Shown here: one piece after another, positions 5,323 through 20,579 of the stretch | Numbering within the stretch: position 1 is the first letter of the stretch | How the letters are laid out: every line of letters begins with the position of its first letter | NCBI RefSeq assembly: GCF_004357995.1 | Contig: NZ_SMTK01000002.1 | Location: forward strand, 62,001 to 126,000 | Length of the DNA: 64,000 nucleotides | Source: Arthrobacter crusticola | GTDB lineage: Bacteria; Actinomycetota; Actinomycetes; Actinomycetales; Micrococcaceae | Reading direction: 5' to 3' | Program-made: the position numbers and the translations under genes | The notes under the pieces: generated by a model | What the model saw: only the letters and a program-made list of their open reading frames with translations | What the model was told of the DNA's origin: nothing | Database searches by the model: none

Positions 5323-6540
<1,218 letters not shown>

Positions 6541-6716
6541 TTATTTGTGAAGCCCGGCACGGACCCGGGTGCGCGGTCTCGCTGAATTGCCGGGGCGCGT
6601 GGTGCATGGGTTAACCTGAGGGGGCGTAGGGACGCGGTCGGCCCCACCCGGACGTGCTGCAGCGCGCGTTTTCTTTACCTGCCCCGCATTGTGCCGTACC
6701 TAGGAGCCGAACGGTT

Positions 6717-7412
6717 ATGACGGATCTCATCGATACCACCGAGATGTACCTGCGGACCATCCTTGAGCTCGAGGAAGAGAACATCGTTGCCCTTCGGGCC
6801 CGCATCGCCGAACGGCTGCGCCATTCCGGTCCGACGGTGTCCCAGACAATCGGACGGATGGAACGCGACGGGCTCGTCGTCGTCTCCGGCGACCGTCACC
6901 TCGAACTGACCGAACTCGGCCGGCACCGCGCCACCGGGGTGATGCGCAAGCACCGCCTCGCCGAACGGCTGCTGAGCGACGTCATCGGCCTCGACTGGGC
7001 ATACGTGCACGAAGAGGCCTGCCGGTGGGAACACGTGATGAGCGAGCGGGTCGAACGGCGCCTCTACGAGCTGCTCGGCCAACCCTCCGAGTCGCCCTAC
7101 GGCAACCCGATCCCCGGGCTTGAGGCCATCGGAGGGGTCGCCTCCGAGTCGACCACCGACGGGGTGACGACGCTGCTGGCCGCGATGGACGACTACCGGC
7201 CGGACTCCTCGGTGACCCTGCTGCGCCTCGCCGAGCCGATCCAGGTCGACCCGGAACTGCTCTCGCAGCTGGCCGAAGGCGGCCTGCGCCCCGGGGCCTC
7301 CCTTAACCTCGAGTCCGTGGGCGGGTACGTCTCGGTCCGGGTTCCCGGGGTCGAGGGTGCCCTCGAGCTGCCGCCCGAGGTCGCCGCGCACGTCTTCGTC
7401 GCCGTCGCCTAG
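6717..7412 (+). CDS. ideR: Iron-dependent repressor IdeR (DtxR family)
   Basis: The protein has 231 residues from an ATG with AGGAG upstream. Counting from this start, M10, H79, E83, H98, C102, E105 and H106 are all present at the residue numbers of the two metal sites of mycobacterial IdeR, and P39/Q43 of the recognition helix also match. That supports both the start codon and a true iron-sensing function rather than a MntR-type protein. The N-terminal winged helix (about 5-70) binds DNA, 71-140 is the dimerisation and metal domain, and the C-terminal 150-225 is the SH3-like FeoA domain (LRPGASLNLESVGGYVSV). It should repress siderophore and uptake genes when Fe(II) is sufficient. No convincing IdeR box was found inside this window. 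Confidence 0.93.
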   Translation: MTDLIDTTEMYLRTILELEEENIVALRARIAERLRHSGPTVSQTIGRMERDGLVVVSGDRHLELTELGRHRATGVMRKHRLAERLLSDVIGLDWAYVHEEACRWEHVMSERVERRLYELLGQPSESPYGNPIPGLEAIGGVASESTTDGVTTLLAAMDDYRPDSSVTLLRLAEPIQVDPELLSQLAEGGLRPGASLNLESVGGYVSVRVPGVEGALELPPEVAAHVFVAVA

Positions 7413-7764
7413 CGCCAACAGGCCCTCCGCCCGGCCCGGGCGGGCCCGGGCGTACATCCGATCCGACGTGCCGCCTGTCCGCCGCTCCGTGTGCACCCCT
7501 TCGTGCCGCACCGGGCCGGCTGGCCCGGTTTGCTGACCAGTTTTAGCGACGCGGTTCGCTGACCCGTTTTGCCGCCCGGGCCTCTTGCTGTGAGACTGTT
7601 CCCGATCGTCTCCTGATCCCCGCGCGGCCGCGGGGACAAGCCCGCCGCCGGCGCCGGCCCGCAGGAGCGCACAGCATTTTCGCCCCGGGACGCGTCCGCC
7701 GCTGCGGCGCCCCGGGTGCGCCCTGCCCGGCGCCGTGCGGGCATCGGCAGTGAAAGGGGACAGC
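7413..7764 (+). other. Non-coding gap after ideR: hairpin and direct repeat
   Basis: No gene is supported here. A perfect 7-bp stem CCGGGCC/GGCCCGG with loop GGCT lies at 7511-7528 and is followed by TTT, a plausible ideR terminator. Right behind it a 16-nt motif GCTGACC-(A/C)-GTTTT occurs twice, at 7532-7547 and 7558-7573 (26 bp apart). Its position, about 200 bp upstream of the M23 gene, would suit a regulatory site. A long GC palindrome also lies at about 7431-7453. Confidence 0.4.
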
Positions 7765-8529
7765 ATGCCGAAACACCGAGTATCGGGCCGCCGCCGCGCG
7801 GAACCCGCCCGGCCCGCGCCGCGGCCGCGGGACGCGCACCGGACCAGCCGGCGCCGCAACGGCCGGTGGACCGGCGGCTCGCCGGACCGGGTCGGACAGA
7901 AGCTGGCGATGGCCGCGGCCGTCTCCGGGCTGGTCCTGATGGCGGCCCTGCCGACCACAGCCGCAGGCACCTCGGCTTCGGCCGCCGGGACCGTGCCTGA
8001 ACGGCGGGAGGTCCGCGCCCCGGAATCGGCAAGCATCAGCTTCACCCCCGTTCCCCTTCGAGGTTCCCAGGACTTCGACACCCAACTCAGGGCCATCGTC
8101 GCCGCCTCGGACCGTCCGGGAGTGCCGCTGGGCGTGAAGGGCTCGCTGAGCGGGCCGCTTGAGACCCTGAGGGGCACCTCCGGGTTCGGCCACCGCGTCA
8201 GCCCGATGACGGGGGTTGCCGGGGAGTTCCACTCCGGGCAGGACTTCAGCGCCGCGTGCGGCACCGAGGTGCGGGCCGCGGCCGACGGGACCGTGGTGTC
8301 CGCCGGGTGGCACCCCTACGGCGGCGGCAACCGGGTTGTCGTCGATCACGGCAACGGCCTCGAGACGACTTACAACCACCTCGCCTCGATGGAGGCCGCC
8401 AAAGGGGATGTCCTCGCGCGGGGAGCTACCGTCGGGACGAGCGGCAGCACAGGCTCCTCAACGGGTTGCCACCTCCATTTTGAGGTCCTGATCAGCGGGC
8501 GTCCGGTGGACCCGATGGGCTGGCTCTGA
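7765..8529 (+). CDS. Secreted M23 (LytM-like) peptidoglycan endopeptidase
   Basis: The protein has 254 residues from an ATG preceded by AAAGGGGA. A long Arg-rich N-terminus is followed by a hydrophobic export segment (46-66). The linker reads PERREVRAPES (78-88). The C-terminal domain (about 138-254) is an M23 peptidase with GFGHRVSPM, zinc ligands H156 and D160 (HSGQD), catalytic-type H205 (NHL) and HLHFE at 236-240. It should cleave peptide cross-links of the wall. The signal region and the following ERRE segment resemble the two NlpC-like proteins downstream, so the three appear to share a secretion module. It ends about 280 bp before them, with a promoter and riboswitch in between. Confidence 0.88.
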   Translation: MPKHRVSGRRRAEPARPAPRPRDAHRTSRRRNGRWTGGSPDRVGQKLAMAAAVSGLVLMAALPTTAAGTSASAAGTVPERREVRAPESASISFTPVPLRGSQDFDTQLRAIVAASDRPGVPLGVKGSLSGPLETLRGTSGFGHRVSPMTGVAGEFHSGQDFSAACGTEVRAAADGTVVSAGWHPYGGGNRVVVDHGNGLETTYNHLASMEAAKGDVLARGATVGTSGSTGSSTGCHLHFEVLISGRPVDPMGWL

Positions 8530-8556
8530 CGGGCGACACACTTGTCGTGATCTGAA

Positions 8557-8596
8557 TGTGACAATTGTGATAGATGTGAGGTACGGTACTACTCGT
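8557..8596 (+). promoter_or_regulatory. Promoter region with three 9-bp-spaced TGTGA repeats (possible MtrA site)
   Basis: TGTGA occurs at 8557, 8566 and 8575, forming tandem 9-mers ATGTGACAA, TTGTGATAG and ATGTGAGGT. The complement of the first contains GTCACA, the core of the direct-repeat MtrA box described for mycobacteria (GTCACAgcg). A TACGGT/TACTAC -10-like stretch follows at 8582-8591. MtrA governs wall hydrolases and rpf genes in actinobacteria, so the site fits the downstream genes. The binding assignment is inference. Confidence 0.45.
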
Positions 8597-8618
8597 GCCG
8601 AATCGTTATAGATTCGGC
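8597..8618 (+). other. 5'-terminal hairpin of the nlpC transcript
   Basis: GCCGAATC-gttata-GATTCGGC forms a perfect 8-bp stem with a 6-nt loop. It is immediately downstream of the likely start site and immediately upstream of the riboswitch. It may stabilise the 5' end or isolate the aptamer fold. Confidence 0.5.
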
Positions 8619-8806
8619 GCCCTCAAGCAAATCGCCTAGCTCTGCCATTGCCTGAGGTCCGTCCGCACAATTCGCATGGCAGAGGCGGGGGAACCAATTT
8701 TTGGGTTTCGTTTAGAAATCCTTGGGGTTAAGTCGCTGATTTCAGCGGCCGGGTGACTCCCATCCGAATCCGACAGCTCACCTCGCAGGCATTGGGAGAG
8801 GCAATC
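8619..8806 (+). promoter_or_regulatory. Cyclic di-AMP riboswitch (ydaO/yuaA class)
   Basis: The stretch holds the signature blocks of the ydaO/yuaA aptamer in order. They are CAGAGGCGGGGGAACCAA (about 8680-8697), TTGGGGTTAAGTCGC (8722-8736), a GGCCGGGTGACTCCCATCC arm, and CCGAATCCGACAGCTCACCT then CGCAGGC (about 8764-8790). CTCTGCCAT (8639-8647) pairs with ATGGCAGAG. GCCCTC at 8619-8624 can pair with GAGAGGC at 8796-8802, which contains the Shine-Dalgarno of the following gene. This suggests that c-di-AMP binding stabilises an extended P1 helix and hides the ribosome site. In actinobacteria this class commonly controls wall hydrolases, as here. No intrinsic terminator lies between aptamer and start codon, which favours translational control. 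Confidence 0.92.
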
Positions 8807-8810
8807 AAAC

Positions 8811-9608
8811 GTGTCCAATAGCTCTTCTCTGGGTCGCCACCGCGCCGCCCAGGCTCCTGTGAATCCGCTAACGGCTCTCTCAAAGGCCGTCACCTCGAAT
8901 GCCGGCTCGGTCGGGCGCCAGGCCGCCGCCGTCGTCGCCGCCTCAGGCCTCGTGCTCGCCGCCGGCCTCCCGGCCCACGGCTCCTCCACCGCCGAGCGCG
9001 AAGTACAGTCCTCCTCCTCGCTGAGCGTCACCGCTCCGGAAACCGCAGCCGTCAGCGCAGCGGCCACCGCCGCCGTCTCGTTCGAGCGCGAAGCCGTCAC
9101 CGTGGCCCCCGCGCCCGTCGTCGTCGAAGCACCGGTCGTCGAAGCACCGGTCGTCGAGGCCCCCGCCGCCCCGGCCGCCGTCGTCCGGCCCGCAGTCGCT
9201 GCCCCTGCCGCTCCGGCTCCCGCTCCCGTGCGGGTTGCCGCCGTCGCCGCCCCGGCTCCGGCCTCCGCCGCTCCCACCGCCAAGCCCGAGGTTCCTTCCT
9301 CCGGCATCGGCGCCGCACTCGTCGGATCCGCCTACTCCCAGATCGGTGTCGCACAGGACTGCACCGCCATGGTCGAGAAGGCCCTCCGCTCGGTTGGAAA
9401 GTCGGTGGGCGACCTCGCCCCCGGCCAGTTCTTCCAGTACGGCGACGTCGTCGGAACCCCCGCGGCCGGCGACCTTGTCATCACCGGCGGCCACGTCGCC
9501 ATCTACGTCGGCAACGGCCAGGTCATCAGCGGTGGCCTCAACGGACTGAACACCGGTCTTCACTCGCTGTCAGATCTGCCCGGCGCAAGCTTCGTCCGCG
9601 TTCGCTAA
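8811..9608 (+). CDS. Secreted NlpC/P60-like wall hydrolase, first of a tandem pair
   Basis: The protein has 265 residues from a GTG 9 nt after GGGAGAGG, itself the 3' edge of the riboswitch. The N-terminus (MSNSSSLGRHRAA...) leads into a hydrophobic export segment (34-53), then an Ala/Pro/Val-rich linker (about 95-165) of the kind that spans the wall. The C-terminal 100 residues form a compact papain-like domain with QDCT (Cys184) and GGHVAIYVG (His228); the usual NlpC motif is DCSG, so this is a divergent family. The third catalytic residue is unclear (S240 or N244), unlike the His in the next protein. The likely substrate is peptidoglycan stem peptides. It is 33 bp upstream of its paralogue. 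Confidence 0.85.
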   Translation: MSNSSSLGRHRAAQAPVNPLTALSKAVTSNAGSVGRQAAAVVAASGLVLAAGLPAHGSSTAEREVQSSSSLSVTAPETAAVSAAATAAVSFEREAVTVAPAPVVVEAPVVEAPVVEAPAAPAAVVRPAVAAPAAPAPAPVRVAAVAAPAPASAAPTAKPEVPSSGIGAALVGSAYSQIGVAQDCTAMVEKALRSVGKSVGDLAPGQFFQYGDVVGTPAAGDLVITGGHVAIYVGNGQVISGGLNGLNTGLHSLSDLPGASFVRVR

Positions 9609-9641
9609 AACCCTTCTTTCACCACCTTCTGGAGATCTCCC

Positions 9642-10469
9642 ATGTCTAATCGCGCCTCCATTGCCCGCCACCGCGGCGAAGCGCAGCGTTCGGCCACCCT
9701 CACCACCCTCGCCAAGGCCGTCAGCGACAACGCCGGCGGAATGGGCCGCCAGGCCGCTGTCGTTGCCGCAGCGTCCGGCCTCGTCCTCACCTCCGGTGTT
9801 GCGGCGAACGCAGCCGACCTGCAGCCCGAGCGTGAATCCTTCACCTCGACGCTCCAGGTGACCGCGGCGCCGGCCGCCGCCGTCGTCGCCGACGTCAACG
9901 CGAAGGTTGCCTTCAACCGCACCCCCGTGAAGGCCGTCGCCAAGCCGGTCGTCGTCGAAGCACCGGCTCCCGCCCCCGTGGCAGCGCCGGCCCCCGTGGC
10001 CGCCCCGGCTGTGGCTCCCGCCGCTCCCGCCGCCCCCGCCGTCCAGACGCCGGCACCCGCCGCCAAGGTCGTCACCGCGGCGGTTGCACCCGCCCCGGCT
10101 CCTGCTCCTGCGGCACCCGCCGCCCCGCGCGCCTCCTCCGGCAAGGCAGCGACCATCGCCGCCGCCGCCAAGGGTCAGCTCGGAGTCATGCAGGACTGCA
10201 CCCGCCTCGTCAGCAACGCCCTCGCCGCCGCGGGCATCAACTTCCACGGCTGGCCGGCCGGCTACCTCTCCCTGGGCCGCACCGTCAGCGCCGCCGAAGC
10301 TGTCCCCGGCGACCTCATCTACTACGCCGACGGCGGCATGGGCCTGGCCCACATCGCCGTGTACATCGGCGGCGGCCAGGCCGTCCACGGTGGCTTCAAC
10401 GGCAACACCACGGTCATTGCGCCGGCCCAGCTCGGCTCGGGCCCCGTGTTCATCCGCGTTGGCGGCTGA
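9642..10469 (+). CDS. Secreted NlpC/P60-like wall hydrolase, second of the pair
   Basis: The protein has 275 residues, with CTGGAG upstream of its ATG. The layout matches the previous gene: MSNRASIARHR start, GRQAAVVAAASGLVL export segment (36-50), ERE motif (63-65), long Ala/Pro linker (95-165) and NlpC-like domain. The catalytic set is Cys186 (QDCTRLV), His237 (AHIAVYIGG) and probably His249 (VHGGFNG), so this copy has a complete triad. The similarity along the whole length indicates tandem duplication. A very strong hairpin follows the stop, so the operon under the c-di-AMP riboswitch is these two genes. Confidence 0.87.
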   Translation: MSNRASIARHRGEAQRSATLTTLAKAVSDNAGGMGRQAAVVAAASGLVLTSGVAANAADLQPERESFTSTLQVTAAPAAAVVADVNAKVAFNRTPVKAVAKPVVVEAPAPAPVAAPAPVAAPAVAPAAPAAPAVQTPAPAAKVVTAAVAPAPAPAPAAPAAPRASSGKAATIAAAAKGQLGVMQDCTRLVSNALAAAGINFHGWPAGYLSLGRTVSAAEAVPGDLIYYADGGMGLAHIAVYIGGGQAVHGGFNGNTTVIAPAQLGSGPVFIRVGG

Positions 10470-10484
10470 TCTCCCCGTATTAAT

Positions 10485-10521
10485 CGACGGGCCGGCAGGG
10501 AAACCTGCCGGCCCGTCGTTC
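10485..10521 (+). terminator. Strong intrinsic terminator of the nlpC operon
   Basis: There is a perfect 15-bp stem, CGACGGGCCGGCAGG (10485-10499) with its complement (10504-10518), closed by a GAAA tetraloop and followed by TTCGTT. Confidence 0.85.
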
Positions 10522-10708
10522 GTTAACAGTGTCCGTCCCGCGGTGCGGAGACGGGGGCAGGGTGCATCCTGCGATCCGGACGGGAGCAGTGATGTGTTCC
10601 CGCCCGGGCGCCGGGCGGCTACCCTAGGCATTGTTAATCCGTAGAACTTATCCCGAACTTCCGGGGTGGCAGCCGGCGGCGGGACATAGTCCGCAAAGAG
10701 GCATGCGC

Positions 10709-11206
10709 ATGCGCACTCTCGTTTTGAACGCAGGATTCGAGCCACTGGCGGTTGTGACATTCCGCCGCGCCCTGGTGCTGGTGCTCACGGGAAAGGCGAG
10801 CGTTATTGCGGAAGACGACGAGCCGGTCGTCGGGCCGACGGAGATCCTGGGGCGGCCGTCGGTGATCCTGCTGAACCGGTACGTGAAGATTCCATACCGC
10901 CACGACCTGGCCGTGACCCGGCGGGGCGTCCTCCGGCGGGACAACCACCTGTGCGCCTACTGCGGGAAGACAGCGACGACCATCGACCACGTGGTTCCCC
11001 GCTCCCGGGGCGGCGGGGACACCTGGGAGAACATGGTGGCCTGCTGCCTGCGCTGCAACAACACCAAGGGGGACAAGACCCTGGCCAGTCTCGGCTGGAG
11101 CCTCCGGTTTGTGCCCAAGCCGCCCCGCGGGCCGCTGTGGCAGCTTAAGGAACTTGAAAAACCGGCGCCCTCCTGGAGCGAGTACCTCTCCGAACGGGCC
11201 GCGTGA
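10709..11206 (+). CDS. HNH endonuclease domain protein
   Basis: The protein has 165 residues. AAAGAGG ends 7 nt before this ATG but only 1 nt before an in-frame ATG at 10703, so 10709 is preferred. The N-terminal half (TLVLNAGFEPLAVVTFRRAL) is the usual lead of this HNH subfamily. The nuclease core has CAYCGK, IDHVVPRSRGGGDTWENMV (catalytic His) and CLRCNN, so the zinc is held by two CxxC pairs. Such proteins occur singly in most actinobacteria and their cellular role is not established. The stop overlaps the mobA start, suggesting translational coupling into the molybdenum cofactor cluster. A GCGGCTACCCT promoter-like element lies at about 10615-10625. Confidence 0.88.
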   Translation: MRTLVLNAGFEPLAVVTFRRALVLVLTGKASVIAEDDEPVVGPTEILGRPSVILLNRYVKIPYRHDLAVTRRGVLRRDNHLCAYCGKTATTIDHVVPRSRGGGDTWENMVACCLRCNNTKGDKTLASLGWSLRFVPKPPRGPLWQLKELEKPAPSWSEYLSERAA

Positions 11207-11823
11207 GCGCGACCGTCCCGCCGGCGTTCGACGCCGTCATCCTGACCGGCGGCAGGTCGAGCCGCCTGGGCGGAACACCGAAGGCCTCCCTGCGCATCGC
11301 CGGGACGACCCTGCTCGAGATCACCCTGCAGGCGGTCGCCGGCGCGGGCCGCATCACCGTCGTCGGCCCTGAGCCGGCCGCCGGGGTGCGCCGGGCGCAG
11401 GGGGCCCCGCCCCTGGTCTTCGTGCGTGAGGACCCGCCGTTCGGCGGACCCGCCGCCGCCCTGGCCGCCTCGCTGGCCCAACCGGAGCCGGGCCGCTCCA
11501 CCGCCCCCTGGCTGATGGTGCTCGCCTGCGACATGCCCCGGTCCGGGCAGGCGGTCGCGGTCCTGCTGACGGCGGCCGCCGAGTCAGGCACCTCCGTGAT
11601 GGCCTCCGACGCGGGCCGGGATCAGCCGCTGGCCGCGCTGTACCGGCGCAGTGACCTCGAGGGCGCGGTGACGGCGGCGGTCGAGGCCGGCGGTGTGGAA
11701 AATCTTTCGATGAAAGCCCTCCTTGCTAGGGTGAGTGTTCGACCGGTCCCGGTTCCACCGGGAACGACACTCGACGTCGACACGTGGGACGATGCACGGG
11801 CCCTCGGGGTCGACGGCGGCTAA
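11203..11823 (+). CDS. mobA: Molybdenum cofactor guanylyltransferase
   Basis: The protein has 206 residues from a GTG overlapping the HNH stop (GTGA). It adds GMP to molybdopterin to make the MGD form used by formate dehydrogenases and related enzymes. The nucleotide-binding loop LTGGRSSRLGGTPKA is at residues 14-28 with Lys27. ACDMP (about 107-111) is the metal-binding Asp motif. Residues DQPLAALYRR near 147-156 are also typical. It is followed by the DUF6457 gene and moeA, a standard actinobacterial arrangement. CTP-using MocA is the alternative, but the MGD context with fdhD favours MobA. Confidence 0.85.
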   Translation: MSATVPPAFDAVILTGGRSSRLGGTPKASLRIAGTTLLEITLQAVAGAGRITVVGPEPAAGVRRAQGAPPLVFVREDPPFGGPAAALAASLAQPEPGRSTAPWLMVLACDMPRSGQAVAVLLTAAAESGTSVMASDAGRDQPLAALYRRSDLEGAVTAAVEAGGVENLSMKALLARVSVRPVPVPPGTTLDVDTWDDARALGVDGG

Positions 11824-20505: not shown

Positions 20506-20579
20506 TGCCCCTGGCCGGAATCGAACCGACGACCTTCCCTTTAGGAGAGGGACGCTCTATCCTACTGAGCTACAGAGGC
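20506..20579 (-). tRNA. tRNA-Arg (anticodon CCU)
   Basis: A 74-nt cloverleaf on the minus strand. Acceptor GCCTCTG pairs with CAGGGGC plus discriminator A, the D arm is TAGCTCAG...GAGC, anticodon stem TCCCT/AGGGA closes loop CTCCTAA with anticodon CCT, and the T arm is GTCGG TTCGATT CCGGC. CCA is not encoded. The tRNA reads AGG, a rare arginine codon in such high-GC genomes. Confidence 0.96.

Follow-up and report, generated by a model that had tools for sequence, protein, structure and literature searches.

The window, a 64,000-nt stretch of the Arthrobacter crusticola contig NZ_SMTK01000002.1 to which all coordinates below refer, carries on its forward strand two tandem genes for NlpC/P60 hydrolases, as the first-pass annotation had described: gene 1 at 8811-9608 (GTG start; PF00877, 24.5 bits against a cut-off of 23) and gene 2 at 9642-10469 (PF00877, 39.8 bits). 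A gene for an M23 peptidase lies upstream at 7735-8529 (likely ATG start at 7765), and upstream of this hydrolase cluster, at 6717-7412, there is a gene for a regulator of the iron-dependent-repressor type with an FeoA domain. Between the M23 gene and NlpC gene 1, the forward strand matches the full-length RF00379 model at 8654-8805 with 68.5 bits (gathering threshold 38). This covariance search bears out the earlier assignment to the ydaO/yuaA class and, judged by its sequence, the element is a c-di-AMP riboswitch (RF00379) for cell-wall hydrolases: besides the score, it has a P1 helix in a corrected register, the P7 pseudoknot to the 3' end, and wall-hydrolase genes downstream. Its relatives and the literature suggest c-di-AMP as the ligand of the window RNA; a diadenylate cyclase domain, the maker of c-di-AMP, is encoded once in the genome. 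At the gathering threshold, Rfam finds just one more element in the window, a tRNA gene at 20506-20579 on the reverse strand.

An RF00379 search of 6500-11300 with relaxed thresholds found neither a second riboswitch copy nor a riboswitch, remnants included, in front of the upstream M23 gene. The genome contains two further RF00379 matches, both on other contigs (L002 and L003), one preceding a gene with a TTG start that tblastn identifies as M23-like, and the other, by eye, an NlpC-like gene (ATG start). At least one match is present in each of the 38 genomes searched within the genus, this one included. By reading of the match table, ten of the 38 same-genus genomes have two matches approximately 1-1.5 kb apart; in such paired loci, the first precedes a homologous M23 gene and the second precedes NlpC. 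Either a loss of the first element here or its gain there could account for the difference.

For the analysis of base pairing, we aligned 36 related leaders of the NlpC class; this alignment, denoted A1, includes near-duplicate rows (L243/L247 and L265/L266). Rows were selected by a CTCTGCC motif in the S2 hairpin, CCGT[CT]CG in its loop and a GC anchor after CAGCT, so that S2, the CCGT[CT]CG motif and the inner pairs of P1 cannot be judged on A1, whereas the P0, H and P7 helices and the outer helix discussed below lie outside the row filter.

The Rfam alignment places the 5' strand of P1 at 8664-8667, with two non-standard pairs. This register was rejected: it is paired in 62.5% of the A1 cells, with one pair formed in none of the 36 sequences, against 94.4% for a strand 31 nt upstream, CGCC at 8633-8636, facing GGCA at 8788-8791 (inner G-C pairs are partly search anchors). 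The corrected helix has 10 compensatory cells, all at the single variable pair; in the window, three of its four pairs are standard, with a C.A at 8633/8791. Rfam thus misplaces P1 in this leader and, judged column by column, in the rest of A1, so that its match here starts 21 nt inside the aptamer. The aptamer body, from P1 to P7, spans 8633-8798 on the forward strand. The stretch taken by Rfam for P1 is part of the loop of S2, a hairpin between P1 and P2 formed by 8640-8648 and 8676-8684. S2 shows compensatory differences between subfamilies by eye, and its invariance in A1 stems partly from the choice of rows.

The leader hairpin and the P0 helix

A probable -10 element, TACGGT at 8582-8587, conforms to TANNNT, and its T8582, A8583 and T8587 are invariant in the 36 A1 rows; a -35-like element, TGTGACA at 8557-8563, tentatively assigned by reading of the sequence, is separated from it by an 18-nt spacer. 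A sigma-70 consensus scan reported no promoter at these two elements. With the -10 element in this position, transcription would start near 8594 and the RNA would begin right at a 10-pair hairpin, H (8595-8620, forward strand). The perfect 8-bp hairpin noted previously at 8597-8618 thus extends by two pairs, and it covaries in related leaders: changes on both sides occur at eight of the ten pairs of H in A1, 89.9% of the cells are paired, and none of 500 shuffles does as well.

The leader strand immediately behind H, CCTCAAGCAA at 8621-8630, pairs with the start of the S2 loop, TTGCCTGAGG at 8648-8657, both on the forward strand. This helix, which we call P0, shares U8648 with S2 and forms nine of ten standard pairs in the window, with one A.C mismatch at 8626/8652. 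All nine counted pairs (8621-8629) have changes on both sides in A1, with 47 compensatory cells (0/500 shuffles) and a covariation value of 0.494 compared with 0.219 in shuffles. Pairing extends to 89.8% of the cells, and shifting the partner by one to three columns brings this down to 47.6% or less. Inside the helix, 8626/8652 does not pair in 21 of the 36 rows, the window included, and P0 is weak in seven rows (4-6 bp with one mismatch allowed). Comparison of the sequences demonstrates the P0 helix, along with H, P7 and the corrected P1. P0 is also present in both other riboswitches of the genome.

In a swap test, the pairing of each 30-nt leader with its own partner was compared with its pairing with exchanged partners. 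The sample for P0 was obtained from 273 parsed hairpins, among which 103 from the scan of mostly other phyla were removed; those of the remaining 170 whose loop measures at least 14 nt were kept, leaving 160. Leaders paired with their own loops at -16.6 kcal/mol on average and with exchanged loops at -11.2 kcal/mol (z -24.6). The signal appears at the level of the genus (z -15.5), family (-12.5), order (-10.1) and class (-4.8), the 17 class-level leaders including, by eye, wrongly parsed ones with short hairpins. The same kind of test gave no signal when the leader was matched with the P2 strand (z -0.6) or with the last part of the S2 loop (z +1.1). An earlier version with 47-nt leaders, which include much of the hairpin, gave a leader-loop sum of -3399.5 for own partners versus -2702 (sd 41) for exchanged ones, and -1605.7 versus -1628.7 (sd 26) for the leader and the Shine-Dalgarno region.

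P0 and S2 fit edge to edge. In 145 of the 160 leaders, the junction between them measures between -1 and +1 nt (search window from -1 upwards), and 8-10 nt, including the 5' strand of P1, lie between them in 130 of the 160 (search window from 4 upwards). By sequence, this layout is as in an H-type pseudoknot with coaxial helices, and the edge-to-edge fit suggests that P0 and S2 coexist. In the window, H ends at the base that precedes P0, which would allow the three helices H, P0 and S2 to form a single continuous stack.

The remainder of the S2 loop contains TCCGTCCGCA (8658-8667, forward strand), an instance of the recurrent CCGT[CT]CG motif that is found in the S2 loops of 39/73 leaders of the genus, 16/40 of the family, 1/30 of the order and 2/17 of the class. 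No partner strand was noticed for this motif, which could possibly make a tertiary contact or serve as a protein site.

The ribosome-binding site and the P7 pseudoknot

The Shine-Dalgarno region of NlpC gene 1, GGGAGAGG at 8794-8801, ends 9 nt before the GTG and overlaps the 3' strand of a pseudoknot between CTCCC at 8757-8761, an anti-Shine-Dalgarno sequence, and GGGAG at 8794-8798 (all forward strand). We denote it P7, which we take to be the label of the corresponding pseudoknot in the ydaO crystal work. A six-pair version (8757-8762/8793-8798) is paired in 94.9% of the A1 cells. P7 is nearly constant in A1, with a single compensatory cell, and 15 of 500 shuffles reach its pairing and covariation values. 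The swap test gave z -12 over 130 leaders, indicative of covariation between subfamilies; the support for P7 comes from this subfamily comparison, since P7 hardly varies within the 36 A1 leaders. By reading of the table, the best-scoring stem between the two P7 segments is P7 itself in 62 of 71 leaders and another stem in nine, the 71 being a regex extraction of L001-L092 that covers part of the RF00379 matches of the genus. P7 covers GGGAG only; AGG (8799-8801) is free and could still bind the ribosome.

A search for terminator-like sites in 8500-10600 found none, in agreement with the initial observation that no terminator precedes the GTG. Complementarity between a strand of the aptamer and the ribosome site, combined with the lack of a terminator, is the arrangement of the Corynebacterium glutamicum nlpC type. 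In the C. glutamicum nlpC riboswitch, c-di-AMP lowers the amount of reporter protein, not that of the transcript, and in an artificial operon it has no effect on the second gene (PMC9960051). Control at the ribosome site, as the first-pass annotation had proposed, is therefore the best reading, given the lack of a terminator-like site, the Shine-Dalgarno sequence within an aptamer strand and the C. glutamicum reporters; by analogy, this control would be an OFF switch at translation initiation acting via P7.

Proposed mechanism and alternatives

We consider it probable that the element is a c-di-AMP OFF switch on the initiation of NlpC/P60 translation, with the block provided by P7 and a stack of H, P0 and S2 located 5' of P1. 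Transcription would begin near 8594, making H the first structure formed; the leader strand behind it would then pair with the apical loop of S2 to form P0, yielding an H-P0-S2 stack directly 5' of P1. With c-di-AMP bound, the aptamer would be stable, P1 closed, and P7 (CUCCC, 8757-8761, with GGGAG, 8794-8798) would hold part of the Shine-Dalgarno sequence, so that ribosomes presumably could not start; without the ligand, P7 would open and the Shine-Dalgarno sequence would become accessible. P0 would most likely act as a clamp that places the 5' strand of P1 and stabilises the ligand-ready fold. The OFF direction and the translational level of control are extrapolated from relatives and the literature, whereas we infer the transcription start, the coexistence of P0 and S2, and the role of P0.

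In an alternative that we regard as possible but rather unlikely, only one of P0 and S2 could exist at a time: P0 would be a 5' expression platform that arises first, traps the 5' strand of P1 in its loop and prevents the aptamer from folding (ON), and the ligand would select S2, P1 and P7 (OFF). Pseudoknot-free folding of the growing transcript draws P0 at 8660-8680 and S2 from 8690, one excluding the other, an order that is just as compatible with switching from one to the other; as single hairpins, P0 and S2 are comparable here (-8.3 and -11.2 kcal/mol), and the 5' strand of P1 sits in the P0 loop. However, strands that abut and scarcely overlap, as in 145 of the 160 leaders, are what would be expected if both helices form together, and the strengths of P0 and S2 are only weakly correlated (Spearman 0.15, p 0.066). 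This alternative shares the P7 block with the coexistence of P0 and S2 proposed above, so that the probabilities of the two overlap.

Transcription attenuation, intrinsic or Rho-dependent, with the Shine-Dalgarno overlap incidental, appears quite improbable, even though the coupling of untranslated mRNA to Rho, which is common in bacteria, would count in its favour. A precedent is the termination reported for Streptomyces coelicolor rpfA in a review (PMC10117811). Against attenuation at the present locus stand the lack of a terminator-like site in 8500-10600, the mere 5 nt between the Rfam match and the GTG, and the reporter transcript of C. glutamicum nlpC, which is unchanged by c-di-AMP (PMC9960051).

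An outer helix between GCCCTC (8619-8624) and GAGAGGC (8796-8802), which the first-pass annotation took to hide the Shine-Dalgarno sequence, is highly improbable as the switch and was rejected on covariation and the swap test. The two segments are indeed present and complementary with one bulge, and RNAfold draws the helix in the minimum-energy fold of the window. Nevertheless, the 82.4% of the A1 cells that pair are matched by the shuffle mean of 82.2% (253/500 shuffles as high; 65 to 120/500 for the other four measures), and 25 of the 36 rows do not form the outermost pair. Swapping the leader and the Shine-Dalgarno region between genomes did not weaken their pairing (z -1.2, 132 leaders). 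The minimum-energy partner of the tract in A1 is the Shine-Dalgarno sequence in seven of the 36 rows, the S2 loop in four and neither in 25. The helix would also compete with the supported H (8619-8620), P0 (8621-8630) and P7 (8794-8798): four of the six bases of the GCCCTC tract belong to the 5' strand of P0, and the other two close hairpin H. Pseudoknot-free minimum-energy folding is misleading here, as it cannot draw P0, S2 and P7 together. The original interpretation holds for the identity of the aptamer and, as the best reading, for control at the ribosome site, but included neither P7 nor P0. Pairing of ATTGCCT (8647-8653) with AGGCAAT (8799-8805) was set aside as a switch; by reading, paralogues such as L003 and L007 do not have it.

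Relation to known riboswitches and distribution

Both the RF00379 assignment and the control of nlpC at the level of translation are of kinds already known. The closest description is that of the C. glutamicum nlpC riboswitch, also a ydaO-type element in front of an operon of nlpC and a second nlpC-type gene, with no canonical terminator (PMC9960051). A CTCC:GGAG pseudoknot at the ribosome site has already been proposed there and matches P7 in the window; in the ligand-free state, CTCC was suggested to pair with a GGAG located approximately 20 bases upstream (PMC9960051). In contrast to the window, P0 does not figure in the part of the C. glutamicum description used here, the comparison being one of descriptions only (PMC9960051). 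The overlap between P7 and the Shine-Dalgarno sequence makes this published proposal testable by compensatory changes across many actinobacteria (PMC9960051).

Firmicute ydaO riboswitches, such as that of Bacillus subtilis ydaO/kimA, have the same core aptamer, and a 108-nt crystal sequence contains, by reading, the counterpart of P7, with CUCCUUCG facing CGAAGGAG (PMC5393176), but the B. subtilis element acts via transcription termination (PMC9960051). In Streptomyces, ydaO-type riboswitches likewise place actinobacterial wall hydrolases under the control of c-di-AMP (PMC10117811, PMC8079986). Older work on S. coelicolor rpfA is cited for a ribosome site seemingly blocked by a stem-loop (PMC8079986), and the review that reports transcription termination for the same gene is PMC10117811. 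Among more distant classes, preQ1 and cobalamin riboswitches with direct occlusion or docking likewise cover the ribosome site through the liganded aptamer, and a review lists ydaO among the docking classes with translational control by ribosome-site occlusion (PMC10907184). The preQ1 and cobalamin classes have other ligands and folds, and we claim no relation.

The P0 pseudoknot was not found in the literature searched, which leaves out the older core papers on this riboswitch class, and we provisionally regard the P0 architecture and its spread as new. In the part of a covariation re-analysis of Rfam seeds used here, RF00379 appears only under 'helix extended' (PMC7657543). Part of P0 falls outside the Rfam model, which it leads astray, the P1 register falling within the S2 loop in the A1 leaders. 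Should P0 stabilise or gate the aptamer, binding or structural work on constructs that start at P1 would deal with an incomplete RNA. The pathway concerned links c-di-AMP to cell-wall cutting.

Beyond the family, we drew 70 loci of the same class, 30 by best score and 40 picked for family variety, and examined 69, one locus from the own family being excluded. These comprise 21 distinct sequences with the S2/P2 signature, 47 without it and one repeat; many of the 47 have a short S2 by eye. In the 21 sequences, all from outside the own family, the leader forms duplexes of -14.0 to -23.9 kcal/mol with its own loop, with a mean of -19.3 compared with -12.7 kcal/mol for exchanged partners (swap z -9.5); the sample of 160 leaders shares five loci with these 21.

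A set of mostly other phyla was gathered by a pattern scan with no phylum filter, the assignment resting on titles for 80 of the 118 loci. The S2 loop in this set has a median of 6 nt (quartiles 4 and 17.5; 82/103 parsed, among the matches listed), compared with 26 nt in 143 sequences of the own genus, family and order. The short S2 loops leave no room for P0 in most of this set, and in the 26 sequences whose loop reaches 14 nt or more no P0 pairing was detected (z -0.3, among the matches listed).

The actinobacterial c-di-AMP riboswitches seem to be of two types. We propose a type I with a short S2 and CCGGGG at P2, and a type II with a long S2, GCGGGGG at P2 and, in addition, P0. The sorting is not clean, with 24 leaders of the order and four of the class untypable. 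It is conceivable, albeit unlikely, that P0 is a 5'-side expression platform specific to one of the two architectures, which would fold first, compete with S2 and P1 and decide between ON and OFF co-transcriptionally, with P7 blocking the ribosome.

In favour of the proposed mechanism, the start codon lies at a nearly constant distance behind P1 in type II leaders: the median is 19.5 nt for the 94 from the order and 20 nt for the 17 from the class, compared with 25 nt for the other type (36 leaders of the class). However, 11 leaders of the order that were sorted as type I are similarly short here, with a median of 18. Both types can occur within one family, for example, f20.
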